Assembly: GCF_042242105.1 (NCBI RefSeq)
Contig: NC_092031.1
Coordinates: 6,036,175 to 6,100,174, forward strand
Direction of reading: 5' to 3'
Origin: Pempheris klunzingeri
Taxonomy: Eukaryota; Chordata; Actinopteri; Acropomatiformes; Pempheridae
Length of the DNA: 64,000 bases
The position numbers were made by a program, and so were the translations under genes. Positions 1 through 47,729 of the stretch are shown here, piece after piece (within the stretch, counting starts at the first letter, position 1; each line of letters opens with the position of its first letter). Under the pieces are notes generated by a model. It made no database searches, was not told the origin of the DNA, and saw nothing but the letters and a program-made list of their open reading frames with translations.

Positions 1-582
1 AATACTACAAAAACCTCAGAAAAGGCCGACTCATAGAATCTTGATCTAAATTTCCCATTTTATTACTCTTTTTAAAGTGCGTTCAAATGTAGTTGTCATA
101 TTTCCAACAATCCCTGAAGGTAACATATAATATGTTATGCAATTACTAAAGTGAACCAGCAGGGGGGGACATGGCACCGCCGGTTAGCTAAATCTGCTAT
201 TCCGATTTATTTTACAAACTTAGCTCAAATATATTACATTATTTTGTTAGATATAAACCCCACAGAGTGTTTAAGTTTACTTAAACCGAGCGCTTTGGTT
301 GTAAACGGTCGTTAAGACCGTTAAAACTGACGGTTGCTTAAGCTAACTGACATTCTTCTACATGAACCTCTAAAGTTGTGTTTCTATGTGTCAAGGCAAA
401 CGTGGCTACAGGCAAAATGTGATGTTTGCGAGAGCCAACTAGACATAAACAAGTAAGTGTGGAGTGAGTTAAGGTTGGTGGTAAATAGCTGCACTACTTC
501 CTGAGTTTAGGGAAGGGGCTTGGTCCCGTGCCCGCGCCCCGCGAACGCGCATCAAATTAGCATCGATGAAGTTTGTGCGAAC
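1..582 (+). promoter_or_regulatory. gna13: gna13 upstream flank and 5'UTR
   Basis: This stretch is AT-rich for its first 450 bases and becomes GC-rich from about 510, just before the start codon at 583. No gene is seen. The GC-rich end probably holds the transcription start and 5'UTR; no TATA box stands out. Confidence 0.4.
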
Positions 583-2611
583 ATGGCGGATTTCCTGCCG
601 ACCAGGTCCGTGTTAAAAGTTTGTCTACCCGTCTGCCTGCTGAACAGCGGCGAGGTGGAGCAGCTCCGAAAGTCCAAGGAGATCGACAGATGCCTCTCCC
701 GGGAGAAAACGTACGTGAAACGGCTGGTGAAGATCCTGCTGCTCGGCGCTGGCGAGAGCGGCAAGTCGACTTTCCTCAAACAAATGCGGATCATCCACGG
801 CCAGGACTTCGACCAGCGAGCCCGAGAGGACTTCAGAGCCACGATTTACAGCAATGTTATCAAAGGTAACCTCGCTGCCGGCGGCGGGTGTGTTTGGAGA
901 GGAAATAACCCGGTTTGCTGCCGCAGAAAGGCGCTTAAAATGGATGGGAAAGTTTCCACATCTGTGTAGCAGCGCTGGGCTGGCTGAGAGGACATTCATA
1001 AACAGTCTACATCTGCTGTCGGCACACCCTTATGATCCGTGTTTCTGCTGAAGTCTCCCCTTTTTAAGACTTGATATATTTACAGACTTGATGTGTATAT
1101 ACAGTTTTCAATGGCAATCATAGCCATTGGCCACAGGAAGGCGGTTTCAAACAGCCACGGGCAAGTTTTGTTGCTCAACAGCTCAGCCAGGGATGTAGCT
1201 AATGGAGGGCAAACCCACCAGAGCATTATGCTGCAAGGTGTTCCTGTTTGTCCACTCTTTGTATGTACAGGGAGGACACTAAACAACAGGGACTCTCTAT
1301 ACAATGCAGCTCAGAGCAATCTAAACCACCTGAAAGAGCACAGTTGAGTTCATCTCCAAGTGTCATCAAAATATTTTGAAATTTGATTTTAAAAAATGTA
1401 GCATTTGCTCTGTATGCAAGGTCAGGTGTTCCACCTCCTGTGCATGGTTATGAGGTTAATTATTACAGAGGCAGGTTCAAATGAGTGAATCAGAGGGAAA
1501 TGTGGGCACCTTTTGATGGTCTTTTTATAGAAAGATTTGTGATAGAGGACTATGTTTGTCTTAAAATCATCATCCTGTTAGTTGTTAGTTACTAGTTTGC
1601 TGTTAACAAGAGGTTAACCAGCTCTTCTTGTCTCTCTTCCACATGTGGTCAGCTTGATTTTTAGGACACCATCAGTGGGCCTCTCTCACTTTGGTCTTTT
1701 CACTTCCTCTACAGGTGTTCGTGTGTTGGTGGACGCCCGGGAGAAGCTGCACATCCCGTGGGGTGACCCGGACAACCAGCGGCACGGAGACAGCCTGATG
1801 GCGTTCGACACCCGGTCGGCTAAGATGGCCAGCGGGCAGCTGGAGACGTCCGTCTTCTTGCACTACCTGTCTGCCATCAAAGCTCTGTGGGTGGACTCGG
1901 GCATACAGAACGCATATGATCGTCGCAGGGAGTTTCAGCTGGTAGGTGGCAGGACACACACACTGAAGTAGCTTTACTGAGAGGTGAGGGTGGCCACGTT
2001 GTTTTTGTAGCACAGTTTTTCTTGATGTGGCTCTCAGACACTGATCTCTATCACCAAATCCAATAAGAGGTTTTTTGGTGTTCTGAGTTGAGAGCTGGAG
2101 GGTTGAAAGGCGGGGAAGGCAGTGAAAACAGAAAGTGAAACTGATTTTATTCTCAATTCATCCCCCCTTTCCTCTCTCCCTGTATCTCTGGCGTGCTCTC
2201 TCTCCCTCGCTCTCTGTCTCTCTGTCTCCGTCTCTCTGTTGAGCGGTCAGACATGTGATTGAGTCAGCTTCCTGTTGACACCTCTCCCCGCTCCTTATGT
2301 CTTGGCTGTCAGCATGCATGTTTTAACAAACTAACGTTTACCCCAGAATAACATTTGTGGTCGACGGCACACTGAAATGGGACTTTCTGGTGGCCTTATT
2401 TTGCCAGGTATTACTTTCACAGCCTGTGCTTCCTTGTATTTGTTTAATTTTATGCGAGCTGTCAGGTCATGTGATGAAGTTCATACATTGTCCGGCAGTT
2501 GAGGAGAGAATAGGGGACGCACTTCTCCAAGTTGCCTTCAGGACTGAGACAAAAGCAGAAAATTGAAATGTTTCTGTCAGTTGCATAAGGCTCAACTGTT
2601 CTCAATGGCCT

Positions 2612-2645
<34 letters not shown>

Positions 2646-5600
2646 AGCTTGTTGTTGCGAGCCGGTTGTGCAGACAGAAAGGGGAATAAGAGTGATCAGA
2701 GCAGGAATGTTGATCTGTAGTTAAACAGCTTTATGCTTACAAACAGAGCTCTCCCACTTGGCAGTATTGGTTCTCACACCCAAAGTTACACACGTACACA
2801 CATATATATTCATTCTCTGTGCATGTAGGGCTGCTACTAAACATTATGTTCATATATTTTGGCATATAAAATGTTAAAATAACACCTCATACAAGTTCCT
2901 ACAGTGTAAGTTGGCATCTTCAGATTTGTGGTTTTGTCTGACCAACAATACAAAACCCAAAAATATTCAAGTTACTGTCCTAGAAATCAAAAAGGCAGCA
3001 GGTCTTCAGATTTTAGTAGCTTAACAAGTTTTTGTTTGTTTTTTTTCATGAAAAAGAACAAATGTTTAATCTGTTAATCAAAATTTGAAAATATATGCAG
3101 AAACAATATGTTGTTTAGTCCGTCAACAGAAAACGAATTGCGATAGTGACATTAAATGACTAATTTGATCATTTATGTTGCCCAACTACTAAACATTTGC
3201 TGGTTCAAGCCTCTCAGATGTGCCTTTTGTGCTTTTCTCCGTTTTTAATCATTTTAGAATAACTGTCATTAAGTTTTGGACTGTTGGATAGGAAAAAACA
3301 AACTGAACACATCACCTTTTCAAAGATGATGTGACATTTTATAGATATTCAGACATTTTATAGACTATTGATTAGAAAATGTTTAGACATTTCTAAGTTT
3401 TCATACTAAGTCATTGTTTTAATTGTGTATTTAATTCAATTCAATTTTATTTGTATAGCCCAATATCACAACAGAGTGTCTCATAGTGCTTTACAAAGTT
3501 CACTGAAATTTACAGTCGATGTAACTCATTACAGGACTACCTATACATGCATACCGACTACTGCACAGCAGAATATCAGATTAATTCACTCAATCAAGGA
3601 AATTAGTAACTATTTTGGTAGCTGTTTTTTATTTATCAAGCAAAATTGACTGAAGTTTCATGGTTTCAGCTTCTCAAGTGTGAGGATCTTTTTACTGTGT
3701 TAAATGAACTTGAACTCAAACTGAATATTTTGGGGTTTTGGATAAAAACAAGTCATTTGAAGTTGTCACTTTGGGTTTTGGAAAATTGTGATGGATTTCA
3801 AACCCTTTTCTGACTTTTAGGATTACAATTAGCCAAACAAATCTGCAGATTAATCTATAAAGAAAATGATTAAGAGTTGCAGCCTCTCTGTGATGTAGAA
3901 AACCTCGATATCAAATGTCAAACTTGAGGGCATCATCTCTCCAAAACACTAGCTTTCCCATTCAGACACGGACACACAAATGATAACTAGAAGCAGCAGC
4001 TGAAGAGTTGTTCTTTTGGGAGCTGTTTATATTTTCCCTGCTCTTGTTAGTGAGGGCTAATTTGTTTTTCTGCCAGCAGATACAGCCCATTGTGTTTGGA
4101 CCATGCCCTTTAAGTATTTGCATCACAAATCACAAGCGCCTTCGGGCTTGCTCGTAATCATCATTAAAAACACATGTACAGACTGAAACCACACACGGAT
4201 TCTGTCTCTTTGTGTCGCACAAAGTTCACACAGTTGGCCATAAATGTTCTGTCTCTCTCTTCTCACCTCAGCAACACAAGCTAAACGACAAGTGGCAGAA
4301 AGCCCCTGTAGATCTGCCACAGTTCAAATGACATGCTGTCATTGTTATCCGATGTTGCTGTTTTGCTTTTATGGGTCACTGATATTAAAGTGCAGGTGTT
4401 GTCATGCTTTATAATGAACGGAAAGAGCACGGAGTGAACGCTCCTCTTGTTTCTCTTCTCCTTTTTTAAAAAAAAAAAAAAAAATCGTTCTCTGATTTCA
4501 AAACCCCCAGTCCCCTCAGATTTGAGCTCCTTTACTCAAGTGAAGCCAGAATTGTGGCCAAAATTAAAAAATCAGCCAGAATAGTAGCTCCTGTTTCTCC
4601 AGGTTTAGCGTAGTGCCACGCCATGCTACGTATACACACACACACACACACACAGGTTTTTCAGGTCAGGTTAGTTTTTTAAAAGATCAAAAGGTGCTTT
4701 CAGTGAGAGGAAATGGATGGTACGTCGCTCTAGCCCTCAGAAATGCAACTCAAACAATCGCTACTATGGATAAAATTAGAATTTTCTGGCGAGTGTGATG
4801 CTTTACTGTGTCATCAATGCAAAATAATCCCCTGAAAAAGGCTTGGCGTGTCTTTGTAGAAGCACAGGAAAGATGACCGTCAAATCTGTTTTGCTTTTTA
4901 CAGTCAGTTTTTGGTTTATGTCGAGTACAGGACACACACACACGCACAGATAAAGGAATGCATAGTCTTGAAAGCCTCATGTCTGGGCTTGCACTAATTG
5001 CACATGAACAGAGTCAGAACAAGCTAGAAAAACACCCCTACACACACACACACACATACGCGCATAGACACACTTACAAAGCTAGCCGCACTTCTGTATA
5101 CATCAAAGGGACACAAACACGTGTCTGCTGCAACACCAAATACTTTGCATCCTGCTTCAGCTACTCAGAGCAGACTCAGCTCTCAGGCGGACACACAGTT
5201 TTGGAAGCGAAAGCAAACAGATTACCTGTGTGTGTGTCTGTGTGTGTGTGTCTGTGTGTGTTCCTGTGTGGCAGCAAATAAGAGATTTTGTCCCGTGGCG
5301 GCTCTGTGTCTCCACAGCAGCAACGAACCTATTCTACCAAATGCAATAATATCAGTTAGTCCGTGTGTATTGAATGCAAACTGTACTGTGTTTATGGTTA
5401 AATTGACTGAATGTAACGAATTGTGTAGAATTAACAGAAATTCCTGCTCTGTCCTGTCGCAGGGTGAGTCAGTGAAGTATTTCTTGGATAATCTGGATAA
5501 GCTTGGCGAGCCGGTAAGTTGTTTCTGCCTGCACTGATTGTTATAATCGGACGTGTACAAATTATAGTTAATATTGCAGCATGTCTAGACAATTTGAGGT

Positions 5601-8600
5601 TAGCTGACAAGCAACTAAAAATGGCTGATCACCAAAGATAATGCTGACATTTTGGCGGGGAAGCGGACCACTTTGTCATGAGAGAACTGGAAACTGCACC
5701 TCAGTCTTGGTGATGTGGGACGTTTGATAAAGTCCAGAGTAATTCAGTCAATATAACAGGTCAGCAAGTCTTAAAAGTCTCTAAAAGTATTTAATTCAGT
5801 TTCCTCGACAAAAAACGTCCGAAATCAAAAGTGAGATTGTGCTGCAGGAGCCCGTTCAATCCTTTTTAGTGCAGCATCATCAGATCACTGCTGCTAACTG
5901 TTATAAGGAATGAGTGTTGATTATAGTAAAAACCCAACAATATCACAAACTAAAGATTGTCATTAGGACTGCTGAGGAGGACAGAAAAAATGTGGTATTG
6001 TACTGATAAATAATTCAAGGCTGGTTTTTCAAGTTTCTATCCTTTGGATGATATGAGTGTAGGAAAGGCATCGAATTGCATTTTGGTGGCAATAAAAAGT
6101 CTTTAGATTTAATTTGGTGAACACTGCAGAAACAAATTATACATATGAGCAGAATTTATTTCATAAGAGCTGGAATTTTTCCTTGATTTCATCAAAGTAC
6201 TGCCGAATATCCCCATTCTTTTGAATGATCTCTTTTTAATCTTTTTTTTCTTCATAATTTTCCCCCTCCCCTTTGTCTCACTTTTGCCAGACATTACAAA
6301 GATTGACCATATTAATAACCTCCTTCCAAAACGTTATTTTAATCAACAAACGGTGAAGGAGACTCTTCAAATATCTTAACAAAACAAGTATCAGGAATAT
6401 TCCCATGATTTTCTGTCACTTAGTGTCGATTGTTTGTCTCTGAGCTTCCAATCTTCAGTAGAAATCTCCACCTTTAGATCCAACTTCTTAGCTTCCAGTT
6501 TAGACTGTGAGGTTTCAGTGGAACCAGATAGAAGCCAGTTATAAACTCATATTGTTGACCCTTTAGTACGGACTGTTTGAATGAAGTATTTCCCTAAATT
6601 GGACTAAAACAGCAGTTAAAACCTCCCCTATAATCATGTATTTCTTTCACCGATATCCAAAATTAAGTTTGGAACAAACCGTTTCGTGAGGATCTAAAGT
6701 AACCTGCTAATTCCATATGAAACAAACTCTCTGCTTTTAGCTGTAATATGTTGTTTCTCCTTTTTAATTCTCCGTGCACGCAGACACTCGCTCATTGTCT
6801 CTCCTTCTCTCCTCCAGAATTATCTTCCCAGTCAACAGGACATCCTGCTGGCCCGTAAACCCACCAAGGGCATCCACGAGTATGACTTTGAAATCAAGAA
6901 CGTTCCCTTCAAGATGGTGGACGTGGGAGGGCAGCGGTCGGAGCGGAGGCGCTGGTTCGAGTGTTTCGACTCGGTCACCTCCATCCTCTTCCTCGTCTCC
7001 TCCTCTGAATACGACCAGGTAAAAAAAACAACAACACGTTGCTGTGGCAGACGCTGGCTATGGCATCTCATTTCCTCTCTCACACACACACACACACTCG
7101 TAATAGCCTGATAAGCGGCACATTAATCAGTTTGTTCTAGCAGATAATGTTTGGTGACTTTTTGATAAGTTTGCTGTGTCTATACACGCACACTTATTCT
7201 GTAGAGGCGTTGTTATTTATCTTGCAGCACGTGTAGATTAGCACAAATAAAACTTATTTTGCTCTGCTGTACCATTTAAAAAGTGATTTCCAAAGACACA
7301 CTGTTGCAGAACTCTTTTTTATATTTAAATGGAAATCACCCATTGGCCTTAAGTCTGATTTAGTATAATACATCATCTTTACAGTACAATTCACACTTTG
7401 ATACATACCTCAGTTTTGGGGTCATAGTTCAGTATGTTCAGAAGAAATAAACACAGTATAAGATTTTTTGTACAAAGATTGACCCAGACTACATTTTTGA
7501 GGGCGATATTGTTATTATAATATTTAAGTTAAAAAAAAAAATAAAAAAAAAACTGATGTATCATCTAAAGTAATTTTTTATTTTTTTTCAATATACACCA
7601 ACATGTTGGATTCCCTAAATTCACTTATTATGTCATTATGACCAATACATTTAGCTGTGTAGGATATTTTTCAGTTGGAAAACAAAGCTGTCTGGCTGGT
7701 AAACTATGTAATAATGACACTCCTCCTTCCTAAATTACCTCAAACATATCTTTGCTGTTTCTTTGTTGCTGTGTCTCATTTTTAATATGATAATATCGGC
7801 CCAGCTGGCCGAATCCCATATTCTCTTCAGAGGAGTCTGGATCTCTCCATTTTTGTATTTCCTCAGACATACCCAAGTTCAGCATAGTTCTCTCCCAATC
7901 TATCACTCTGTGTCTCCTGTTGCTGTAACTCAGCTGGGAAACTATAATCAGGCTTCAAGTTGGGTTTTTTTTGTCCCCACTTGTCCAGTCAGGCAAGTTG
8001 GTCAGAAATCTACTTGCCTCAAGTCAATTTGTACTCATCCCTGTACAACTTGTTTCATTTATTAGCAGAGTTGTGTGAGCAGCAGCCCTAAAGCACACTA
8101 ACATTAGCAGAATCATTTCACTGAGGTCGTCTTTAAGAAAAGAAACGTTTCAAATTGGATGTTGTATGGAAACAGAGATTTTATCTTTAGGCCTGATTTT
8201 TCTGTGCGTAGCTATACTTTACTTGCCTGATGTGGCGTTTTACTTACAAGCAGGCAATAATAATGCATAATGCCCCCAAACAGTGACTATAGATGACACA
8301 GGTGGCTCTTCCAACCCAGCTAACAGATGAGAACTGAGCCACTGCCAAAGCTTTCTGGCTGGAGCGCACATTTATGTTGTGCACATGCTAAGATATTACC
8401 AATTTAGAATGAAAATAGAATTGAATACCAAACTGAATATGTTGTAGCAAATGGTTTGGAACAAATACACACCCATATTTTATTAAAAGGCCAGCTCGAT
8501 CGGACATGATGTACCAAGATTTTGAACTCTAGGTGACTCTGTTAATGTTAATTAATTTCTCTTTATTCTTATTTCTACTTTAATTACATCTAGTACACAG

Positions 8601-9024
8601 TACTAGTACTGGCAGTAATGACTGTGTTTAATTCCTTCATTGTCTTTAACAGGTGCTGATGGAGGACAGGCAGACCAACCGACTGCGTGAGTCGCTCAAC
8701 ATCTTCGAGACCATCGTCAACAACCGCGTCTTCGTCAACGTTTCGATCATCCTCTTCCTGAACAAGACAGACCTGCTGGAGGAGAAAGTGAAGAACGTTG
8801 CGCTCAAGGACTACTTTCCCGAGTACACCGGGCAGGAGCACAGCCTGTCGGACGTCCAGGCGTTCATGGTGGAGTGCTTCCGAACCAAGAGACGCGATGC
8901 CACCCAGAAGCCCCTCTACCACCACTTCACCACGGCTATCAACACGGAGAACATCAGGCTGGTGTTCCGGGACGTCAAGGACACCATCCTCCATGACAAC
9001 CTCAAACAGCTCATGCTCCAATGA
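583..9024 (+). CDS. gna13: G protein alpha-13 subunit (five coding exons)
   Basis: Coding exons 583-865, 1715-1941, 5463-5513, 6818-7018 and 8653-9024 join in phase with GT-AG borders to give 377 residues, the length known for mammalian GNA13. Family role: membrane-associated GTPase of the G12/13 class that couples receptors to RhoGEFs and RhoA. Visible features are Cys14 and Cys18 near the N-terminus (the palmitoylation positions of GNA13), P-loop GAGESGKST at residues 55-63, switch I region ARKPTKG, switch [18 protein letters not shown], the guanine-specificity motif NKTD and the C-terminal tail DNLKQLMLQ. The ATG at 583 is chosen because it begins MADFLP, the family N-terminus; the upstream in-frame ATG at 520 adds a non-conserved leader. 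GNA12 is excluded by the N-terminus and tail. Which teleost duplicate (a or b) this is cannot be decided here. Confidence 0.97.
2167..2239. repeat. Pyrimidine-rich (CTCT/TCTG) simple sequence in gna13 intron 2
   Basis: An almost pure C/T run with TCTCTGTCTC-type units lies in intron 2. Together with the CA tract at 2615-2643, it is ordinary intronic microsatellite sequence. Confidence 0.7.
2615..2643. repeat. (CA)n microsatellite
   Basis: Uninterrupted CA dinucleotide run in gna13 intron 2. Similar shorter tracts in the same intron are at 4634-4654, 5040-5056 and (as GT) 5226-5270. Confidence 0.9.
2825..3890. repeat. Fragments of dispersed teleost repeats in gna13 intron 2
   Basis: The stretch contains pieces of two common fish repeats. 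At about 3430-3500 is the AATTCAATTCAATTTTATTTGTATAG-type tail (lower-case part of a widespread SINE/LINE-like 3' end; only the start is quoted here as AATTCAATTCAATTTTATT). Around 2825-3200 and 3670-3890 are fragments of the 'GGCTGCAACTAA...TTAATCTGTTAATC...TTGCAGCC' family, with the right-hand copy reversed (ending GAGTTGCAGCC). Assignment rests on remembered consensus, so the family names are uncertain. Confidence 0.5.
7521..7590. repeat. Poly(A)/poly(T) tract in gna13 intron 4
   Basis: A-rich run interrupted by single T residues, followed within 25 bases by a T-rich run, so the two could pair as an imperfect hairpin. The rest of the 1.6 kb intron (7019-8652) shows nothing recognisable apart from a short CA tract at 7081-7096. 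Confidence 0.6.
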
Positions 9025-11761: not shown

Positions 11762-14638
11762 ATGAGTTCTGGTAAGTGTCACAAATGTTTGTTTGTCATT
11801 CACAAGACACACGACGTCACCTAACCTCAACCGATATTAAAAGTGCGCTATTAATTGCACTGGGGTGTGCTGAATAATGACATACAGCAGAATCTGCTGC
11901 AAATTCTACTAAAAAAACTCTTCTTTCAGTGACAAGGTCAAATGTGCACGATGCAATAAATAGTACATAGTAGTTCAGTAACACATGTGGACACTTACTT
12001 TTAATCAGGATAAATAAATACCACTTCCTATCATGAAGTGATATTTGTCAGTGTTTGAAGTTTGTTCATATTTAAAGCTGAAAATAGTAGTTAAACTATC
12101 TCTTAAAACTTTTCAAGTGAAAGTGCAAAACATTTCATCTTCTTAAATGTGCCTGTATTTTGTTATATGTATTATTATAAAGTCAATTTCTTTTCATTTT
12201 AATTTCAATTTGGAGCATTATAACGTTTTATGGAAAAAGATCATCAGCTGATTAACTGATAATATAATTAATTGTGAGTTGCAGCCTTATACATGTTGGC
12301 CACATCTAAACATACATTTGTTGACACCACACTGTGCTTGTTTTAACCACACAGGAGCACTGCTCTGTCATTGTTTTTTCCCCCACAGAGGTGTGCCCAT
12401 TCTGTGGTAAAACTTATAAAAGGTTGAAGAGTCACCTACCACACTGCAAAGCAGCAGCGAGCTCCAAAACACCTGCAACCAAAAATGAAAGAAAACAGAA
12501 AACATCTTCTCAGCTGGACGCAGCCCCGTCCGAACCAGCAGCAAAGGGAAAAACGTCCACACAGACGCCGTCGATGAGTACAGGTCAACAATCAAAGAGT
12601 AAAAAGTCTCCTGTGGTATTATCAGCACCACCGCAGTCGTCGTCACTGAGCTCTGCATTACCTTCACCATCAACTAAGAAGAAGAAACAGAGGCTGTCTG
12701 AAGAAATCAAGACAGCCAACATCCCCTCCTCACCCACATCTCTGTCTCCCACTATCTCTGAGCCCAAAAGGAAGAGTCTCCGTTCTTTGATAGAAGCTGC
12801 AAAGTCCAAACAGGTTCCTAAGGCATCACTGGAGGGGACCAGCTCTGCCTCAGATGACCAGCCTTCAGATTCAACTCCATTTGTGTCGGATCATCTAAGC
12901 TCCAACAGCACAGCGCAGAAAGAGACCAAAACTGATCCCGACAAAGACGCCCATCCTGCCTCCGCAGACACCAAACCCAAAGCTGCCTCTACAATGAAGT
13001 CAAAGAAAGACAAGACAAAGAAGGCAAAACCCCTCTCCACCAGCAGAGATGGCTCCAGCTCTCTGGACTCTAAAGTAAATAAGAGTAGTGCAAGACCCCG
13101 TGACTTCTGGATGGACGACGAGGGGGACAATGAGGATTTGTCTGCAAGTAAGATGCCCTTGAAATTAGGAAGTGGCCGCCAGGCGAGGATTACCCTCCAG
13201 GATGTTAAAGCCACATTAGGCCGAGCTAACTCCACCCGTCAGTCCGGCAGGCCGAGCATCCTGAGCCAGCTTCAAACCACCGATGATCTAAGCAGTAAAA
13301 TACGACTAGGTACAAGCCTCAGTCCTGTTCCACTCCCAACAGGGAATCACAAAGATCTTGCTAGCTGCTTGGCAACAGCTAAACCTCTACAAGACCAGCT
13401 GCCCATTATCAGACCACAGCACACGCAGCTACAATCAGTTAGTGCAGTTAGTTCAAAGCCTAAACAAGCCTCTTTAATCCCCCGGCAACATGATGGTTCC
13501 CCTCAGCCTGCAGCTCCCCTCCTCTCAGGCCGTCTGTCGTCTCAGGTGAGCCAAACCACGACGCCTCCACGCACAGGCAGCGTGGACCAGGGGCTGAAGG
13601 TGGGCCATCACATGACAGGACTCCTCACAGTGTCCACATCGCCACTCATGCAGTTCTCTCATCTTGTTCCACAAACTCTGCCGGTGAGGGTGGAGACATT
13701 GGGAGGAGAAGATTGGTCAAAGCTCAAAGTCAGGAAACACAACACTGCTGATATCTCAACTAAAGGTCAGTATTTGAGAGTAAAAGAAGGGCTGGGTATC
13801 GAACCTCAAGAAAAGTACCAAAAAATGGTCAGATTCTTAGTTTTGTTTACTTAATCTTTAATTCTAGTTTCTGATGTAAATGTATTTTTACACAACATCT
13901 ACCATTAAAGACCGTAAGATTCTTCAGTTAAAGATTAAAAAGGGTTGCATAAGATATTCATATTCCTCAAAACGATATTCCCCTAGTGATATGAAAGACG
14001 GTGTGTTTGTCTGTGTCAGTGCACTGATTCTTTATGGGTGTCATGAATTGCAGGCGCTCTGACACAAAGGAGTCTTGGACAGGTGAGACTGAAGGAGTTG
14101 CCTGAGTGGCTGGCCTGCAAAGCCCCCGGACATCCCAGAGACGTATTGGAAATGGTGCAAAGAGGTGAATTTCACACACATCTCACATAAATCCGAATAT
14201 AATATATATCATGTATTGCTCATTAAACAGTAAACACAGCAGTAGGTTCACTGTTTGACAGACATGAGCATGATATCAGTCTGCTCATCTTACTCTGGGC
14301 ATGACAGCAAATAATCCTTCATCCAAATTATTCCCTAAACTAACCTTCAAATCTTCTGCAGTGTTGAGTATGAAGTTTTACATTTTCCTCTCCTCTGCGT
14401 CTGTCAGGCTGGCAGTGGTATTACAGGAGGTATATTGACGTGAGGAAAGGTGGTGTTGGAGGACTGGCCATGTTGTTAGCAGGATACTGTGTGCTCAGCT
14501 ACATCTGGAGTTACCCCCATATAAGTAAGTGTGTGAATCACTGTCAGTGTTGCTCTGTGTAAAGGGACACGCAGAGATAACTGAGCCTATTGATGGCTGT
14601 TTTTTCCAGAGCGTGATCGTTGGCGGAAGTACCACTGA
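11762..14638 (+). CDS. mtnap1: C17orf80/MTNAP1-like protein with C-terminal ATP-synthase-f-like domain
   Basis: Exons 11762-11771, 12389-13765, 14054-14164, 14408-14524 and 14610-14638 join in phase into 547 residues. The N-terminus MSSEVCPFCGKTYKRLKSHL holds a C2HC-type knuckle (Cys6, Cys9, His19, Cys23), matching the N-terminus I recall for human C17orf80, reported as a mitochondrial nucleoid-associated protein. The large second exon encodes a Ser/Lys/Pro-rich, probably disordered middle. The last three exons encode LKELPEWLA, QRGWQWYYRRYIDVRKGG, a hydrophobic segment of about 20 residues (LAMLLAGYCVLSYIW) and the tail RDRWRKYH. These follow the order and spacing of mitochondrial F1Fo ATP synthase subunit f (ATP5MF), including its terminal RKYH. 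I infer an inner-membrane anchor. The neighbouring bicral is convergent. The ATG at 11762 is chosen because its 10-nt exon completes the conserved Glu-Val-Cys codons. Confidence 0.88.
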
Positions 14639-15905: not shown

Positions 15906-18368
15906 ATAATTTCCATTTTCTTGTGGGTTTTTTTTTTGTTTGTTTTACATTCTTCTTTTTGTCTCCATACAAAAATTATAAATATTTGTGTTTCACTTTT
16001 CATTTTTATACAAAACAACAAACTATACAAATCAAGTGAGACAAAACAACAGTGAAAATGGAGGCAGAAAGAACACACAATTCTGCACTGGAAACGGGAG
16101 AGAAAAAGCACAGTATGTTCCTACCAGGCCCTCAGACACTGATATGCATCGAGATAACACAATGTTCTCCAGCAGTGGACACGTCCCTTACTTTGTGCAA
16201 GTCTACAACTAACTTTCTTGTGGATATAAGTGCTATAGAGGCACATAGTCTTGCAGCAACTACTTGAAGGAACAAATAACAAACCTCGCCTGACCCACAC
16301 GTCATTAGAGATTTGCATTCAAAGCAGAGAGCCCAGTTTTCTCAGTGTGCACTGGTAGATATAAGAGGTCTATAGGCAGAGATGCAGGCGGGCTGCGATG
16401 GCCACTGGCACTCAAACACACAAATCTTCCACCCCGTAGAAAAGGCCTTCAGTCTGCTCCTGTAGCCTATTGGCAAGCATATTTCACAGACAAGTTTATA
16501 GGAGAAAGGTGACGTTGTCCAGAATCAACTCACAGAGCATTTAACACATTTAACCTAAGCTTTGGTCCTGTGTTGGCAGAAAATGCCCTTCCTTACTTAT
16601 AACATAGTGCAGATTCATTAAAAGTGTCATTCCTAAAATAGAAATACAAGGCCAATATGTTGGATTATGTCTTATTCATTATGAAATATCACACTATGTT
16701 AGGTTTTGCCTCTAAAAGCTAAATGAAAATCAGAACACAGTGGGTGCCCAAGTCATTTTAAGGGAGCAGCTTCAGAGGAACCACGACAGCCACAGAGCTG
16801 TTGTCACCAGCACAAAGAAAAAAATCTGACAGTGATTCTGGACAAGATCACACACTCCCCTATCATGAATTTTGGTTGCGCTGCTGAAAAGAGACGAAAT
16901 GTGAGAAATGCTTGAAAAGAAACACTGGAACGTGAGAAAAAACATCCTGGGGGACTGAACTAACGCTTGGGAATAAAGTCGAGAGGATGGAAATCAACAT
17001 CTACATGAAAACAGTCATTGTGTATGTATGCAGATTTGACACATACACACCGATAGACGTGTCAAGGTTGTAAAGCATAGATAGATATGATCAATATATC
17101 GTTATACTGAATGCAGAAGGCAGACAAATATACATACAATCAATGACCCTCCAGAGTCATTCAAACTAATGACAATCTTGTCATGTTCACAAAGCCGGGG
17201 AACACATAACAGCAAACAAAAAGTCATATTTTAATGTCATTTCTAAAAATAAAAATAAAAAAAAGAGAGGGGAAATAAAAATCTCAATAAAAAAAGATAA
17301 TGATATTGTAACATATGTTCCTCAATCTGAGGACTGAAGTCCCCTGACACAAACACACTGAAATGATAAAAGTGGTTCAGATCGAGATTTGTCCTGGTGT
17401 CTGTGCCGGGGCTTACATACCTTTAAGGTACAAAAGAAAAATGCCAAAGAAAATGTGACTTAAGCACAAGAAAAAAAGCATTGCAGAGTACAGTATCACT
17501 ACTATATATGTCTATGTGACTAACTCGACTGGTATCTAGTGTGACTAAGAGGTTATCCTTGTTGCAGGCAGCTGAAAGCAGGCAATTGGATTTTGGTTCA
17601 GCTCCAAATATTCACATTCTGTTTATCCTAACGTACACCGACATACCGACCACAAGAGAGCCTCATACTCGTATAGTTCCTGAAATAAGCAACAGTACGT
17701 TTAGTGCAATTTGTCTATGTGAATGTATCTCTACTGAGCTCGCCTTAAGGGAAATCTACACCTCTGAACCGTGAATCTACCTGACGCATGTTGCTAAAGT
17801 GTGTGTGTGTGTGTGTGTGTCTTGTAACGCAGGAAGGATCTGAGGGAATGGATACTTTTGAATAGAGCTTCTTCATGTAAACACTTCAAAATAAAAACCT
17901 AGAATTAGGCACAGAGTCGTCATTTAGTCCCTCCTCCTCATCCCTGTTATCAGCATAGGTAGTGGGGGTTATCAACTGGCACAAAATATTACTGATGTGT
18001 GTGTTTGAGTGTGTATAAAGAGAGGGACACTCTTCTATAAGTCGCAGACTCTACCCCTTTAAAACATAATGTTAAAACAAACTAAACAAAAACATTTTCC
18101 ATCAGTTAATCCATTGCATTGCACACATTCCCGGATCTTTATAGGTAATTTTAAGTGCTTGCGTTTACTCGGCACCTTGATGGAGTCTCTGACCCCTACT
18201 TGTGCCTCAACAACCCAAAAAATAAACCCAGAAGAACTTAATACATGCTACGTGGCCGGAGATGGTATCACAGAAATAACATCCTGAAAGAAGAGCTAAC
18301 CTCTCCTCACGCGGGATTGCGGGGAAATACAACAAATTTTGCAAGCGGAGAATCTGACTAAACAAACA

Positions 18369-18418
<50 letters not shown>

Positions 18419-18459
18419 AAGTCTAAACCATACATTGGGGATGATATGGAGCATCAGTC
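15906..18459 (-). other. Probable bicral 3'UTR / intergenic, no gene seen
   Basis: About 2.5 kb without a supportable coding region follows the bicral stop codon (complement, 18460-18462). Long 3'UTRs are usual for this family, so much of it may be bicral 3'UTR, but no reverse-strand AATAAA could be placed with confidence. It contains a GT tract at 17800-17820 and a long CA tract at 18371-18414. Confidence 0.4.
18371..18414. repeat. (CA)n microsatellite, about 22 units
   Basis: Uninterrupted CA run located 46 bases beyond the bicral stop codon, so it would be transcribed as a GU/UG tract in the bicral 3'UTR. Confidence 0.9.
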
Positions 18460-21400
18460 TTAACATTCCAGGATGCTGTTGACTGCCGCCTCCAGAGCAG
18501 AGTCTGTGTCGGGGTGAGCGGGCGAGGTGAGCTGAGAGGCGTACTGGGGCTGGATCAGCGGGGAGGACAGGTGGTGGGACACCTGGTAGTGCGTCTGTCC
18601 TCCTGACGTTGCTGCAAATGTTGAGGGGTTACCTTGGGGACAGCTGTTGGCAGCGGTGAGGCTGTTGTTGCTGGCGCTGCTGGGCCCGTAGTGTTGCTGG
18701 GATCTCTTCAGTTCCAGGACGCTCTTGTTTTCTGAGCGTGCAGGGTGGAGTCTATCTGCTGCACCTGGTCCTACAGCCCCACCCCCTCCCGGGTCTCCAT
18801 ACCCGGACTGGGAGTCTGTCCTGTACGCTGGCTCCGTAGAGCCTCTGTCCGACTGATTCCAACTACAGCTGGACAATGACGGAGAGGGGAGAGGATCTTG
18901 GAAAAGTTTTGATTTCGTCCCACAGCAGAAGTCATCCAAGAAGCTGTCTATAAAGCAGGCAAAGAGGAAGAGTTACATAAAATCTTTCCTGGGAAAATTA
19001 TTTGCTCCAATTGCCTCTACTCTTTACCCTTTTTTTTTTTGTACCTGGATCCACTAGTACCATGCGTTTGTCTTGCGTCAGGTTGCTGCGCTCCTCTTGG
19101 TTGAAGGTCCTGTCAATCATCACCATTTCTGATGACGGACTGAAACGCTGCAGGGAAGGTGAAGGCAACCTGTCAGCCATGTGCATGTCACAACAGGAAG
19201 GACATGTATGCGTGCAACAATTTGCTCATGTGTGTGCCTACCTCAGCCTCCACCATTAGCAGCCGTCTGTATTTGTTCACCATGGCCTGGGTCCTCTTCA
19301 GCACCTGAGTTGCAACTACCTCAAATTCTTCATCCACTGCAAGCAAAACAACACAGAACTCAATGCAGATGAGGTTTACTTTGATTCTGCAAACATGATT
19401 TTACTTGCACATACAGGCATACACGTGCAGATTTCAGGTAAAGCTAATAGATTCAAAGCTGTACCTTGTGAGAACTCATCCTGGCTGGGTGGAGCCCCCT
19501 GGAACACATGGTAAGGGAGGAGTCTCTGCAGTGCATCCTCAATTGAAGTGAATTGACGTCGGTCTGGGGTCTGAACTCCAGCATGATCCTTCCTCAACTG
19601 CTGTAAAATCCTACAGAAGTGACAGATAAGCGAGACGAGCTCTGTCAGTGGATGAATGACGAGCTACGCAGACAAAAGACGACACTTCACAAATGGAAAA
19701 CAAAAGCAAAATGGCCAAAAAACTCACATTCCTCCTTTTGTAAGTGGCAGAAGGGCAGGTCTCTTCTGAGCACTGACCTATAAAGGGAAAGTGTACATAT
19801 CTGAATTATCATTATATCACTGATATCATCCCTATCAGCATAAACAACCTTGCATACACACCAAAATGAATGCAAAACAAATGGTGCAGAATGTGAGTCT
19901 GGAATGTACCTGAGAGTTTAGCGTTGAATCTTGAGTCATAGCTGAGAGAGATCGTACAAACAACAAAGCTCATTAGGTCAAAGTGTGGCAGATTACATTT
20001 AAATGCATCACTGACAAAAAACTAATTCAGCTGTTGTTACCGTGGATGCTGCTGAGCTGTGCCTGTCTGTCCTGTTTGAGGGCAGGTGATGACGAATTCT
20101 GAAAAATTAAGATCAAAGTGTCACTCAGACTACAGTTTTCAGGAAAGAGACACGAATGCGAAACACAGGGAACGTGAGATTATACCTGTCTGTAGTCTTG
20201 TTGTTCTTGTGTCACAGTACCAGGTAAAGGGGACAGAGAAGTGCAATTCTGAGTCTGAGTCACTAGAAGGCGCTGAACAGGGCTCGCCGCCGTCACTTGG
20301 CCTTGACTGCTGATCCCCGCCGTCGCTGGGCCAACCAGAGTCAGCCGCCCAGGAGCGCAGGAAGTCTGAACAGGGGCAGAGCTGGCACAAGAAACTCCTG
20401 TCCATGTTTGAGTTACAGCCCCTCCAACCTGACTCCCACCGACTACTCCCTGATTCAAAATTAGCTGGCCTCCTGGCGGTGCAGTGAAGTTCTGCCCCGC
20501 AACAATCTGCACTGCGCTCTGACTGGTAATTAGGGCATTTGAGTTGGGGTCAGCGGGGCCATTGTGGATGGTGCTGGCCGGAGTGAGCGCCAAAGAGCCG
20601 GGCAGCAAGAACTGTCCAGGTGGCATATTTGTCTGGGCCTGTCCCGCCTGTTGCTGCTCCAGCGGCGGCTGCACCACTATGGAGCCATTAGCTGTGTACT
20701 GTCCCCCCGCAGTAGCAGTGTTAGCATTAACTACATTGGCCATGGTGGAAGGAGTGGGCTGAAGACCAAGGCTGTAGACAGTCTGAGCCCCAGCTTGAAG
20801 GGGTTTAGGCTGGATAGGTCTGACAAGAGTCTGGGTCCCTCCCGGGCCTCTCTGGATGATGATGTTTTGAAGGGGGATGTTTTTGAAAGGTAAGCCAACT
20901 TGGCCCACCTGCCCTTGCGTAGGGGCAAAGACTTGCCCACTTGTTGCGCCTCCTGCTGCAGCTACAGGCGCCCCCTGCCTCAGCACAATCTGAGGAGTCC
21001 TCTCCAAGCTGCTCAGAGTCATCACACCACCGCCCGTCCCAAACGAGCCCAACACCTGGATGTGCTGGGCCGAGCCATTGGGCAGCGGGGACACCCCTTG
21101 CAGGAACTGGCCGGCGGGGAACGCAGCTGTCGCCGTGGTTACGACACCCACTCCCCCTCCATACCCCCCAGATACCAGCTGGGAGGGGAAGGGAACAGGA
21201 GCCTGCACTAAAGTGGGAGCGGGCTGGGAGTCTAGCAAGGCCTCCTGGGCCAACGTCTGCTCCGTGATGTCGGCCTCCATGAGAGACTTCTGTAGGATGT
21301 CAAAGGGCTGGTCCTCTCCGCCAAGATCCACCCCTCCAGGAGACGTCTCCGGCCCCAATTCATCCTCGATAAATGAAAGGCTGCTGGAGAGCTGGAGGCC

Positions 21401-22500
21401 TGCCCCTGCTGAATCCTCGCCAAATTCATCCATTGAAGAAGTGCCACCTTTGAGGCCGGCATTGGAACCGGCCTAAATGAGGCATTTGGTGAAAATGAGC
21501 AGAAAGTGGAAAACTGTTACAAGGCTGCTTTCTGTGTAGCTCATGAATCTGTGATGCTCTTCACCACCTGTACAAATAGGGAACTATACAATGAACTTTT
21601 TATAGTTTCTATCATGTAGTTTACCATTTTTGATTCCTTGCAGCATCCAATATTGTATTTCCCCAACTGGGTTCACGTATTCAGATATTTGTTCACTTAC
21701 AACTTTCCTTGTCTGTTAAAATAGTGTTGGACAGATTGTCTCAATACAAAGCAAATCCTAATAATGGCGTTTCTGCTCAGATCTCAGTGAACACCTGAGA
21801 AAGCACTCTCTGTTGAGACCCTCAAGTTTTGTTGGATCAAAATAACGAGAGGCACACTCACCGTGTCACTAGAGAAGAAGGATCCATCTGAGCCATAAGC
21901 TGCATTTGTTACATCGTCCTCTTCAATCTGCAGACAGATAATAGAGTTAAACAGAGTTAAGTAACTGTTCAGACAAACTCTGTAAGGTGCGACTGTAAAT
22001 ACACTCTGAGACACTCACAGACTTGCTGTTGCTGCCATGGAGATAGTCATTCAGCGCATCCACATCTCTGTCAAGCGAACAGAGGAGATTTTTAGGTACA
22101 AACCCCAAAACAGGCTGAACATGACATCAATGTCTTTTCACTTATGTGCGGTTTAACACTAGCTTAACTCATCCAGAATAGATTGACATGAAATGCTTGG
22201 AGATAGATCTCCTGTGAATGGGCCACTAGATTATTAACTTCCTTAATTCAACTTAAGATGAAAAAAAATAAGTTTGCAGATAAGCGTGGCATTGATTTCA
22301 AAGAGGAACCGTAGTTATATTGCCCAACTATTTAAGCAGACGTGTGAAAATGTGTGGCAATATTGTGAATTGCCTGGTGAAGACAAATGTCAGTGCATCC
22401 ATTCATAAAGTGCCTGTTTGTCCATGATGTAAATGTCACTTTTGAAGAGGGGGTTTTACCCTAAAATATCCAGAAGACGGCGATCGTCCTCATCATCCAT
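18460..22500 (-). CDS. bicral: BICRAL (GLTSCR1-like), ncBAF chromatin-remodelling subunit
   Basis: Eleven coding exons on the complement, in transcript order 22500-22460, 22067-22019, 21927-21862, 21472-20186, 20098-20041, 19941-19910, 19777-19728, 19610-19465, 19336-19242, 19147-19045 and 18947-18460, join in phase to 804 residues. The start MDDEDDRRLLDILGD and the end AAVNSILEC match BICRAL ends. The block DQPFDILQKSLMEADITEQT is shared by BICRA and BICRAL. Residues about 525-640 form the conserved GLTSCR1 region (EDALQRLLPYHVFQG, DEEFEVVATQVLKRTQAMVN, SSEMVMIDRTFNQEER), which in this family docks on the BRD9-containing non-canonical BAF complex in the nucleus. The rest is Gln/Gly/Pro/Thr-rich and probably disordered. 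Human BICRAL is near 1080 residues, so this protein is shorter, mainly between the large exon and the GLTSCR1 domain and in the tail. BICRA is less likely because its C-terminus differs. Confidence 0.93.
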
Positions 22501-25030
22501 GACACCTGAAAGATTACGGAGGGGTATAAGGATGGAATGAGGCAGGTGAGGAGATGGCAAATGTCTGATATGAACTAAGATTACATACTAGCCCACTTTA
22601 TTACTTGTTTTTATCCTGAGCTGCAAAAGCTGTGTTATTATGATAGTAGTGTGGACATCTCACTCACAGATTTCCAGCAGGAAGCATGGATTCAGTCCCT
22701 TTGTTTCCGGGGCTGCAGAGTGAGAAACTGCATTTAGTCAAGATTACAAAATGATATGTGTGAGACAGTGAGGTAGGTGAGCCAGAAAGGAAGCGATGGG
22801 GGGGTTGGGGAGGAGGAAGAGGGGAACAATATGTCACTTAGTGCTGTGGGATATATGTATGCAAGGGCAGGATGGCCTTCATCCCCTCCTACAGATGTTT
22901 GTCTCTGACAACACCAACTCCCACCCATTACACTCCTCTGCTGTTCCACATCGGTCGTATTTCCAGTCTGCACAGTGAAGGCAACGTGTGCGTTTGAGGG
23001 TAAAACCACTCCACCCTGCTCCACATGTAGCTTGAATGGTTGCGTTTGCACACTGAGAGAGGCTTTATGTGGTGTCAGCCGGCTAAAGTATGCAGCTATC
23101 TTACTGCTAGTTAATAAAAGTGGAACAGAAACAAGCCCATGAGCACCAAAATGATCCAGCAGGGCAACTGACTATGAGTGTTTGGATATCTATCAAGTTA
23201 GTTGTATTAAAGCTATATTGATAGATATCAGAAACAGAGAATTCCTTTAGTCACTAATCCAACATTTAAGTAAAATTGTCTTTAGATACTAGGTCCTTTG
23301 GTTCTGTGTTACTGCCATGGAGAAATGTATGCTGCGTTCATGGGTCTGTGTGAACTGCAATGCTACAAAATGGCTGTTACCGTGACAAGCTGTCTTTACA
23401 GCTGAGCCACGTCCAGCCTCCATCTTTGGTTCAGGGAGAACAAAGACCGACAGCCCTTCTGAGCCAAACAGGCAGTCTGGAGTCACTTTAAACTGACTTT
23501 TAAACACCAAGAAACATGCCAGAGCAAGTTATATCACTGAACAGCGTGTTATCTTTTATATTTATACCAAAATAGACTTTATTTTCTCGATGGAGGTGAC
23601 AGGGTACTAGAGGCAGTGAGGCTTCTTTGTTCTTCAAAAGTGGACAAAAATATGGAGGGGGCAAGCAATGTCGACAACGGAACCAAACGATTAATGCAGT
23701 GTCATTTTATTTCACAAAAAGCACCAAATTTGGGCTGTTTGTACGTAAAACATGATAATAAAAACGACCCTTGTTTGAAACGCCTAACAAACCAAAACTT
23801 AACCGTTGCTTCCAACGTGGAGGTTACAGATTAACGGTTTGATCAACGGAAATTTCGACTTTAGCTTCATTAAAAATGACGATAGAGCTGAAGTACCAAT
23901 GCTGACAAAAATGAGCCTTAAAAGTAGCACAAAAACGCCCGACACGCAGACGAAGAGCCAGTTTTTAGTCAGGAATGTGAAAATAACGCCAGGTTTTCCA
24001 GAAAATTTGAACATTTTGCCTGATTTTAAGCTCTAAATGAGCCTCCGCAGTCCGCCCTAGCATGCTTCAGCGCGGACTAAGCTAGTCCCCGCCGTAGTCT
24101 AGCTACTGGCGCTGAGCTGCACCGCCGTTGGTTTTGTAAGCCAGCTAATGTACAGCTTGCAAGTTTTATTTCCAAAAATAGACTGAATCGACAGAATGAT
24201 AATCGCATTCAAGCAGCACAAAACGCCCGTCGTCCAGCCTGTGACTGGTCGCCGCTGACGTGATCTTTCTTTCTCTGTCGGGGAGGCTTTCATTTGTCCT
24301 CCATGTGGCTCATCCGCAAGCTTGAAAAACGTCACATTTGTCTCGATTTGCCGAACCGACGCGTTTGAACCGGCGGGATAATGAGCTCCAGCCCGGGTAC
24401 CGCTCGGGTATCTTCCCCGGGGTACGGACCGCTTCTCATTTTAACCACCAACACCGGCCTGGTCTGGTTAGCTAGCCGCGGTGTCGACGACGCCTGTTTT
24501 GAAAACGTCGGCTAGAATCGGTGGAAAATGCCACAGGACGAAACCGCGCCGAGCCCATACATATTAATCCCGATTAGCAAAACATAAAGACGACTCAAAG
24601 AGGCGAACCCTTTACTCCTGTCTCACTCCTCTTGAAACCCAATATCTCCATTTGGCAACTTTTAATTTGCTCCCCCCTCCTTCTCCTCCTCCTCCTTCTC
24701 CCTCTCCCACTCATATATTTTTCTCACTGTCCCTGTTCTGTCTCGGATAGATTTTTCTCTCCGCTCAAACTCTCTTCCCTCCCTGAAGGAAGGGAGGAAG
24801 GAGGTTGTGTGTGTTTTTTCCTTGAAATTTTTATCACAAAATTATAATACACTCAAAGGGAAACTCACCGTCATGAAAAAGCAGTGCCTTGTCAACGGGG
24901 TTTCCTCGCCATCACCGCACGGGTCGCCGGGGCAGCGCACAGAGCGGAGCAGCAGCCTGAGCGGCGGCATGCAGCCCATCACATCCACACAGGAAGCACA
25001 CAAACAGAGAGAAAACACCGGCAAAAACAC
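22460..25030 (-). promoter_or_regulatory. bicral: bicral 5'UTR exons and upstream region (reverse strand)
   Basis: Upstream of the coding start, two non-coding exons can be proposed on the complement. One, 22712-22668, lies between a CTGCAG acceptor and a GTGAGTGAG donor. A GC-rich first exon ends at 24869 with donor GTGAGTTT. The ATG exon has its acceptor TTTCAG just above 22505. The first-exon start is unknown but lies at or above about 25000. GC- and CpG-rich DNA also extends across 24230-24560. The intron between (22713-24868) holds no other recognisable gene. Confidence 0.55.
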
Positions 25031-25495
25031 ATTTCTGCAGCGATTTGGGTCATAATTACGGCTTTCACTGGCCTTTATAAATTACACATAAATGTTATTA
25101 TATTCAGTCATCACCAGCAGTAGAGGGCGGGCCTCTGCTGCCACACCTTGACTCAGGTAGTTACCTGACAAATCCACTAATTTTTTTTATGCTCAGGCAT
25201 CAGAAGTTTATATATTGTTTTGGCATAAATCGCTCTCATTGTGCACATTAGCTTTTTAATTATGACATCTTTGTGTTTTTCTTCCTCATATGCCACTACA
25301 GAGTATATTTAAATATAGATGTAATAATTTATATGATACTGTAATGCATCAGAGTTGTTGTTTTTTAAAGGGTTACCATAGTTCCCCTGACCCTATCTTA
25401 AGCAACAGGTTAAGAAAAAATATTTTTATTTGATTTTGCCATAAATGCACCCAACACACATGTCCAGATACAGGCGACACAAAAACAGGGGGAAT
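24997..25495. repeat. Tandem duplicated unit, copy A
   Basis: Copy A of a roughly 0.5 kb sequence that recurs at 25523-26041. Shared landmarks include ACACATTTCT, GATTTGGGTCATAATTAC, CTTTCACTGGCCTTTATAAA, GTAGAGG...GCGGGCCTCTG and an identical 37-base AT-rich stretch at 25408-25444. Copies differ by substitutions and small indels, so the duplication is not recent. Copy A begins inside the proposed bicral first exon. Confidence 0.88.
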
Positions 25496-25522
25496 TAAAC
25501 AAACTATAAAACTATAAAGAAC

Positions 25523-26041
25523 ACACAAACAAACAGTGAAAAAACACCAATAAAAACACATTTCTACAACGATTTGGGTCATAATTACTGCTTTCACTGG
25601 CCTTTATAAATTACACATAAATGTTGTTATATTCAGCAGTAGAGGGGGCGGGCCTCTGATGCCACACCTTGACGTTGCTCAGGTAGTTACCTGGCAAATC
25701 CACACATTTTTTTATGCTCAGGCATTAAAAGTTTATATACTGTTTTGGCTTAAATCGCTCTCGTTGTGCTCATTAGCTTTTTAATTATGACATCTCACTT
25801 TGTGTCTTTCTCCCTCTTATGTGCCACTGCAGACTATATTTAAATATAGATATAACAATTCATATGATACAGTAATAAATCAAACAGAGTTGAAAAAAAA
25901 TAAAGAAAAAAGGGTACCATAGTTCCCCAGACCGTATCTTAAGAGACAGGTTAAGAAAAAATATTTTTATTTGATTTTGCCATAAACCAAAATACACATA
26001 ACACACATGTTCAGATGTAGGCGAGACAAAATCAGGGGGAA
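25523..26041. repeat. Tandem duplicated unit, copy B
   Basis: Copy B of the duplication. Its AT-rich block at 25948-25984 is identical to 25408-25444 of copy A, giving a period of about 530-540 bases. It lies in the bicral-tbcc divergent intergenic region. The two reverse-strand reading frames in the copies resemble each other only because of the duplication and are not thought to be coding. Confidence 0.88.
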
Positions 26042-26062
26042 ATACATACACTAATATCAGAA

Positions 26063-26105
26063 TCAGAATTCCTTTAATAATCCCCTGGGGGAAATTGCTC
26101 CAAAA
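26063..26105 (+). repeat. Fish LINE/SINE-tail-like repeat fragment
   Basis: CAGAATCAGAATTCCTTTA followed by ATCCCC...GGGGGAAATTG resembles a 3' tail motif shared by many teleost retroposons. Only this short piece is present. Confidence 0.5.
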
Positions 26106-26759
26106 AGAATAAGAATAAACTTCAAACACAAAAGTAAAAATATAAATATATAAAAGTATGTATATTATAAGTAATATAATACCAGCAAAGATTTCTGTGC
26201 CTGTTCTCTCTCAGTAAAAGAAAGATGTGTCATGTCTCCATATGAATTACGCAAAATACAAATAGTAATCTGCACGATCAAAAACATTAAATGCATTCAC
26301 TCATCTTTACCTGTTTGTTTGTTTTTTACTTTTAACATCATGTAATAAATTGTGCTCAATGTTGTCTTCCACTCATTAAAACGACCTTTATCCAAAACAG
26401 CACTATACTTAATATTACCCATAAAAACCTGCAAATATTCCAGCGCCTTGCTATGCATGCATTTATACATATGTGCTCCTGTTAAATAGGAATTGGTAGC
26501 ATTTTAAATCTAACATATATTTGACTGTAGTGATAGAAATTGCAGTCAACTCTTGATTGTACATTTACTGCAACATTTAAAAAAAAACAAAAAACTTTCT
26601 CTTACAAAGTAAAGCTATCTCACCAATTTCTAGACGCAGTCTGATTAAGTAATTTATTTTCATTTGTTAGTTACGAGGGCCTGAATAAAAGTTGGTTTTT
26701 ATTAGATTTTTACTATTAATTTACACTTTTTCACATTTCACTGTCCAGATGGTTTACTG

Positions 26760-26872
26760 CCATGACACTCCAGTACAATAGGTGGCGGTATGCAGCGTGA
26801 ACTTAACTGACATGAACCACGAAGAAGAAAGCGTGACGTCACCACTTCCGCATTAGCCGGCACAGCAACAAC
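26760..26872 (+). promoter_or_regulatory. tbcc: tbcc core promoter with CRE and ETS sites
   Basis: A full palindromic CRE, TGACGTCA, is at 26834-26841 and an ETS-type site, ACTTCCG, at 26844-26850, within 40 bases of the tbcc start codon. Just upstream, CACTCCAGTACAATAGGTGG followed by CGGTATGCAG and then CACGAAGAAGAAAG resembles a repeat often found in fish genomes. The arrangement suggests a TATA-less housekeeping promoter; function is inferred. Confidence 0.55.
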
Positions 26873-27904
26873 ATGGACGGGGCGGCTGAAATTAGCGAAG
26901 GAACCGGGTTTACCTGCGAAAGCGGCTCCACCAGGATACAAGAGCGACTTCAGAGGCGGCACCAGACGAGGATAGAGGACGCCGAGCGGAGGAAGGAAGC
27001 CAAAGAGAGCCAGTCTGTGGCGGAGGAAAAGGGCGAGTATTTCTTTGGCACTTTCAACACCGAGCGGGCGTCTATCGAGGAGCTGCTGTGCGGCTGCTCC
27101 GGAGCTGACCGGGCTGTGTTGACCCAAAAGCTGGAGGAGGCCACGGCCAAAACACTCCAGCTGCAAAAGTTTCTTAATGACAGCATGTTGTTTCTAACGC
27201 AGTACGACCTGAGACAGGCCCAGGCTGCTCTCCAGAAGCTCCAGACCTCCATCGCAGAGCTCAGAGAGGAGGGTCTGCCCAAGAAGAAGTTCGCCTTTCG
27301 AGCTCGCACTAAAGCAGCAGATAAAGCTTCAGCTGCACCGGTGTCAGACACGCCCTCACCCGCAGAGCCTGGCAGCATCAAGGTGGATGGAGCTGCAGCC
27401 TCCGAGCAGTGCGGCTTCTCCAATGTGAACAATGCGCGCCTGACAAAGACAGCAGAGGAGATCCACAAACAAGACGTGCTGTTGACTCACCTGACCAACT
27501 GCAAGGTCCGTCTGTTCGGCTCCCCCAGCACGCTGCACCTGAAACACATCGACAGCTGTGAGATCCTGTGCGGACCCGTGTCCAGCTCGGTATTCGTGGA
27601 TCAGTGTAGAAACAGCACTCTGGCCTTCCCGTGTCAGCAGCTGCGGACACACAACACCGTGGACACACAGGTGTATGTGCACGTCACCAGCCGGGCCATC
27701 ATAGAGGACTGTCATGGAGTGAGCTTCGCCCCTTTCTCCTGGTCTTATCCCACCCTGGAGGAGGACTTCACTGTGTCTGGCCTGGACCAGGATCGAAACA
27801 ACTGGAGCCAGGTGGACGACTTCAACTGGCTGGCTGCAGGAACCCCTTCGCCTAACTGGACTGTCGTTCCAGAAGCAGACAGGAAAACTAACTGGGACCC
27901 TTAG
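26873..27904 (+). CDS. tbcc: Tubulin-folding cofactor C
   Basis: Single-exon frame of 343 residues (human TBCC is about 346). Family role: with cofactors D and E it triggers GTP hydrolysis by beta-tubulin and releases folded alpha/beta heterodimers in the cytosol. Residues about 25-130 are charged and helical (ERLQRRHQTRIEDAERRKEA), fitting the N-terminal spectrin-like domain. The C-terminal half is a cofactor-C/CARP beta-helix with the motifs SPSTLHLKHID, GPVSSSVFVDQC and FPCQQLRTHN. Arg258 in CQQLR aligns with the catalytic arginine finger of TBCC, equivalent to Arg118 of RP2. It ends with the conserved WSQVDDFNWL. It is divergent from bicral and followed by prph2 on the same strand, the arrangement I recall for the human locus. 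Confidence 0.96.
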   Translation: MDGAAEISEGTGFTCESGSTRIQERLQRRHQTRIEDAERRKEAKESQSVAEEKGEYFFGTFNTERASIEELLCGCSGADRAVLTQKLEEATAKTLQLQKFLNDSMLFLTQYDLRQAQAALQKLQTSIAELREEGLPKKKFAFRARTKAADKASAAPVSDTPSPAEPGSIKVDGAAASEQCGFSNVNNARLTKTAEEIHKQDVLLTHLTNCKVRLFGSPSTLHLKHIDSCEILCGPVSSSVFVDQCRNSTLAFPCQQLRTHNTVDTQVYVHVTSRAIIEDCHGVSFAPFSWSYPTLEEDFTVSGLDQDRNNWSQVDDFNWLAAGTPSPNWTVVPEADRKTNWDP

Positions 27905-44627: not shown

Positions 44628-44698
<71 letters not shown>

Positions 44699-47294: not shown

Positions 47295-47363
<69 letters not shown>

Positions 47364-47583
47364 TAATCTATCTATCTATCTATCTATCTGTCTATCTATC
47401 TGTCTGTCTGTCTGTCAATCTATCTATCTATCTATCTATCTATCTACCTGTCTATCTATCTATCTGTCTGTATGTCTGTCTGTCTATCTATCTATCTGTC
47501 TATCTGTCTGTCTATCTATCTATCTGTCTGTCTGTCTGCCTGTCTATCTATCTGTCTATCTGTCTGTCTGTCTGTCTGTCTAA

Positions 47584-47625
<42 letters not shown>

Positions 47626-47667: not shown

Positions 47668-47729
<62 letters not shown>

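Follow-up and report, generated by a model that had tools for sequence, protein, structure and literature searches.

The five-exon gene at positions 11762 to 14638 (plus strand) of the window, that is, of the whole 64,000-nucleotide stretch of Pempheris klunzingeri DNA analysed here, raises the question of how a protein with an N-terminal CCHC finger came to end in a likeness of subunit f of the mitochondrial ATP synthase, and of what such a tail might do. The gene is probably the fish orthologue of C17orf80, which we take to be the gene called MTNAP1 in newer nomenclature; the orthology rests on the architecture of the encoded protein.

Gene model and protein architecture

In the predicted gene model, which yields a product of 547 aa, all four introns have GT-AG ends and all are phase 1. 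The coding part of exon 1 (11762..11771, plus strand, as are the other exons) supplies MSS and a split codon ahead of a phase 1 donor. These 10 coding bases were placed from the frame, the donor and a putative start codon, and the open frame of exon 2 contains no Met upstream of the finger. Exon 2 (12389..13765; 1377 nt, phase 1-1) encodes the finger (residues 6-23) and then, over residues 26-462, a middle region that is basic and of low complexity. It is followed by exon 3 (14054..14164; 111 nt, phase 1-1), with the N-terminal part of the subunit-f-like module, exon 4 (14408..14524; 117 nt, phase 1-1), with its membrane segment, and exon 5 (14610..14638; 29 nt including the stop codon), which encodes the C-terminal RDRWRKYH. 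Residues 463-547 are thus encoded by 14054-14638, the interval that the initial annotation had flagged.

That annotation had described the N terminus as a zinc knuckle. A pattern search found the CCHC spacing C-X2-C-X9-H-X3-C at residues 6-23, but no Pfam zinc-finger model scored over its cut-off with the 547-aa protein (best E = 0.041). Residues 26-462 are 36% S/T/P and 18% aromatic plus ILVM residues, with a pI of 10.07, and this composition is the sole basis for calling the region disordered.

Potter et al. (2023; PMC10445727) describe human C17orf80 as having a CCHC finger at its N terminus and as disordered over most of the remainder, and they did not detect the combination of a CCHC finger with subunit f outside gnathostomes. 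The fish protein has, by pattern, the N-terminal finger and also the C-terminal subunit-f domain of its human counterpart, and its middle may, judged by composition, be disordered as well. The two proteins also differ in length (609 residues in human versus 547 in the fish) and in the position of the start codon, which lies in the third exon of the human gene and was placed in the short exon before the finger exon in the fish (human data from the same text).

Homology of the C-terminal module to subunit f

The homology of the C17orf80 tail to subunit f is already known, having been published in 2023 for the human protein, in which, by the account in the main text, HHpred aligned the C terminus with almost the complete subunit f at an E value of 2.6e-15 (Potter et al. 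2023, PMC10445727). Among the further C17orf80 papers listed, judged by title and the start of the abstract, none dealt with this homology, and the single paper found to mention MTNAP1 was a pig GWAS. Our finding therefore mostly confirms a published homology in a fish, with coincident introns (see below) as a small new piece that sharpens the origin of the gene.

Judged by its sequence, the tail of the fish protein is a true relative of ATP synthase subunit f. The Pfam model for this subunit (PF10206) matched the whole protein with an E value of 4.7e-8 (33.7 bits) and residues 463-547 with an E value of 1.4e-9 (38.6 bits), both above the curated cut-off of 26.5 bits. It was the only Pfam family listed for either query, under filters that drop most matches above E 0.1, and an NCBIfam search found no family. 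When the module was searched against PDB, 8 of the 11 sequences listed were subunit f chains (E values of 2.3e-18 to 1.9e-10), the remaining three having E values of 0.65 to 0.68, and the best subunit f match spans residues 6-85 of the 85-residue module. A single 19-residue hydropathy window of at least 1.6 occurs in the entire protein at sequence level, starting at residue 514; it predicts one membrane helix, with a short basic tail behind it that ends in RKYH. These results bear out the initial reading of the last three exons as a subunit-f-like module with one membrane segment, similar to subunit f almost from end to end and sharing its RKYH terminus.

We also located atp5mf in the same genome, at C17:11239036-11241120 on the minus strand. 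After splicing it encodes 89 residues, and the best PDB match of this product is a subunit f chain (E = 3e-29). Only atp5mf and the C17orf80-like gene gave significant subunit f matches in this genome; a further place, on C10, had an E value of 7.46. The module aligns with subunit f over its whole length and has a near-equal hydropathy peak (best 19-residue value of 1.62 in the exon 4 segment and 1.63 in atp5mf), and 39 of 82 aligned residues are identical to those of the fish atp5mf product. It differs from subunit f in having one extra residue, in its weak conservation in the N-terminal third and in having no known place in the enzyme.

This identity is distributed unevenly: the membrane and terminal exons are conserved (25/39 aligned residues in exon 4 and 7/8 in exon 5), and the module's N-terminal exon has drifted (7/37 in exon 3). 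Such a concentration of likeness in the membrane-segment and C-terminal exons is what could be cited for convergence on a membrane-anchor composition in place of descent, a reading that we find hardly credible. The module scores 218 against atp5mf, compared with a maximum of 50 among 2000 shuffles and a score of 24 for the remainder of the protein. The identity extends beyond the membrane segment to the RKYH end and to YY..Y..V.KG, and the introns coincide, which speaks against convergence unless the gene model is wrong. We rejected convergence on the alignment score and the intron coincidence.

Another way to explain a complete module preceded by a phase 1 intron, as in atp5mf, is that exons 3-5 form a small gene of their own, a second atp5mf copy, with the finger exon belonging to another gene. 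Subunit f stands alone as 89 residues, whereas the module is the C-terminal part of a 547-residue gene model and does not have the stand-alone size of about 90 residues. An in-frame stop lies directly upstream of exon 3 and the first Met of the region is residue 496, inside the module, which argues against exons 3-5 as a separate gene and led us to reject it. In addition, the splice from exon 2 to exon 3 keeps the frame in the predicted gene model, and the published vertebrate protein has both of the same ends (main text of PMC10445727). We regard a separate gene as very improbable.

Intron positions and the origin of the gene

The coding exons of atp5mf are 16, 108, 117 and 29 nt long, and its introns are all phase 1. 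Its exons 2, 3 and 4 are the counterparts of exons 3, 4 and 5 of the C17orf80-like gene, the last two pairs being equal in length. A comparison of introns with fish atp5mf had been proposed with the initial annotation, and the phases and both module-internal positions proved to match: these introns cut identical aligned codons in the two genes, at the 38th and 77th alignment columns, a coincidence with a chance of about 3e-5 by a simple count. The intron entering the module is also phase 1 in both genes, and its column is identical when no gap is placed at the first two residues; since MAFFT does place one there, this third coincidence is softer. Literature searches on the structure of the ATP5J2 gene found no intron positions. 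In their main text, Potter et al. (PMC10445727) do not use the terms "intron," "duplicat-," "synten-" and "gene fusion," and they write "exon" three times, always for the knockout.

Because a retrocopy would have lost its introns, the phases and positions shared with atp5mf point to a module copied from genomic DNA; its most likely source is a duplication of atp5mf at the DNA level, and not retroposition. This origin is the added value of the fish gene: the coincidence of introns points to genomic DNA of atp5mf as the source of the tail, and it leaves the gain of a single exon to account for how a young mitochondrial nucleoid protein was born. The duplication looks old, as silent sites appear saturated, with 1 of 9 fourfold sites alike between module and atp5mf, although this is a small sample. 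For shared residues, 8 of 24 codons are alike, and exon 4 has 71 of 117 bases in common. For exon 4, fish atp5mf is the nearest of three subunit f sequences compared (25/39, versus 18/39 and 17/39 with the two other chains), while exon 3 has the opposite trend (7/37 with fish atp5mf versus 11/37 and 12/37). Recent gene conversion with atp5mf is an unlikely source of this pattern given the fourfold-site, codon and exon 4 base counts above, and the mosaic divergence of exons 3 and 4 may more simply mean that subunit f has changed faster in mammals.

From its exon structure, the gene can be read as atp5mf with one exon added, which is symmetric (phase 1-1) and encodes the finger and the low-complexity region. 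Such a gene could have arisen by either of two routes: the phase 1-1 exon may have entered intron 1 of an atp5mf duplicate, or exons 2-4 of atp5mf may have been placed behind a finger-bearing exon. The first exons of both genes are short and phase 1, which fits the insertion route; a comparison of the two 5' regions gave a single 15-base match (E = 0.25). The initial annotation had suggested exon fusion with an atp5mf paralogue. Of this, the origin of exons from atp5mf is supported by the matching introns, but fusion is not told apart from insertion of one exon.

As a more specific and tentative proposal, which we consider possible but would not favor, C17orf80 may have arisen in vertebrates as a duplicate of a complete atp5mf, short first coding exon included, and may possibly be its ohnologue from a whole-genome duplication. 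It would have become a nucleoid protein in one step, through insertion of a single symmetric phase 1-1 exon for the CCHC and disordered regions into intron 1, so that a subunit of the ATP synthase came to anchor a domain on the DNA side to the membrane.

A putative membrane anchor near nucleoids

Potter et al. (PMC10445727) place the N terminus of human C17orf80 in the matrix and its C terminus at the inner membrane; BioID links the protein with TFAM, Twinkle and mtSSB, and it accumulates in nucleoids after ddC treatment. We consider it probable that the fish gene is a C17orf80 orthologue whose last three exons come from a duplicated atp5mf, with one large phase 1-1 finger/basic exon in front, and whose tail most likely acts as an inner-membrane anchor near mtDNA nucleoids. 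The exon descent in this explanation draws on the sequence and intron positions analysed here, and the mechanism on the human data. The tail would be an inherited inner-membrane anchor with the N terminus in the matrix, it would hold the finger and the basic stretch beside mtDNA nucleoids, and the protein may be an optional tether or a stress-responsive nucleoid factor. In the same paper, knockout in human cells left mtDNA, nucleoids and OXPHOS without major defects, and the authors regard it as unlikely that the protein has a large part in attaching nucleoids; its function as a tether may therefore be minor or absent. The human protein fully resisted extraction at pH 9.5, and only about 60 to 70% of it remained membrane associated at pH 11 (main text of PMC10445727); integral insertion is, because of this partial release, not fully proven.

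The initial annotation had gone further and suggested that mtDNA nucleoids might be linked with Fo or cristae. If the module still occupied the place of subunit f in Fo, or docked with its neighbours at cristae, it would physically couple nucleoids to the ATP synthase, and the conservation noted above, highest in its membrane and terminal parts, would be consistent with such a contact. However, of 43 residues that do not vary among three subunit f sequences the module retains just 24, the N-terminal third has diverged, and the main text of PMC10445727 reports no experimental support for an interaction with complex V, whose assembly was normal in knockout cells. We saw nothing to suggest that the fish protein is built into the ATP synthase, and the proposed link has no support; we judge docking at Fo or cristae to be improbable, and retain an anchor near nucleoids as the preferred role of the tail.

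Genomic surroundings

In human, CPSF4 adjoins ATP5MF and CPSF4L adjoins C17orf80, and the two chromosomes of ATP5MF and C17orf80 also carry the pair GNA12 and GNA13. CPSF4L is described in a passage of PMC13253961 as a paralogue of CPSF4. Our literature searches found no paper naming C17orf80 together with CPSF4L and, by title, none relevant to a GNA12/GNA13 paralogon. In this fish, CPSF4 (plus strand) and atp5mf (minus strand) lie tail to tail at C17:11236449-11241120. A CPSF4 query against the genome (E 0.01) found three places, namely, two exons on C17 and a weak match on C6 that contains a stop, none of them near the window, and no second intact gene. When open frames of at least 25 aa from 100 kb around atp5mf were compared with those from 164 kb around the C17orf80-like gene, 18 rows had E values of 1e-3 or better: one was the module, two belonged to a LINE-like frame, and the other 15 have, on inspection by eye, the look of dispersed repeats. 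With this outcome and no CPSF4-like match near the window, synteny in this fish gives the ohnologue reading no support.

Other features were seen around the two genes. On C17, a 1268-aa open frame at 11227309-11231112 (minus strand) resembles, judged from its sequence, a LINE endonuclease/reverse transcriptase. Within the window, the next recognised gene upstream of the C17orf80-like gene, at 511-9021 (plus strand), comprises a G-protein alpha exon (PF00503) and a C-terminal exon that is presumably that of GNA13. Positions 18299-33188 hold a gene on the minus strand with no Pfam match, which we take to be BICRA/BICRAL-like, TBCC as one open frame on the plus strand (PF07986 and PF16752), and a plus-strand tetraspanin (PF00335), presumably peripherin-2-like. 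The BICRA/BICRAL-like, TBCC and peripherin-2-like genes are on 6p21 in human, and here they lie beside genes of human 17q. Exons at 42416-45204 appear to us to be Quaking-like, long open frames at 47231-48288 are by their appearance derived from a short tandem repeat, and an exon of the Tim17/22/23 family (PF02466) lies at 62802-63134.
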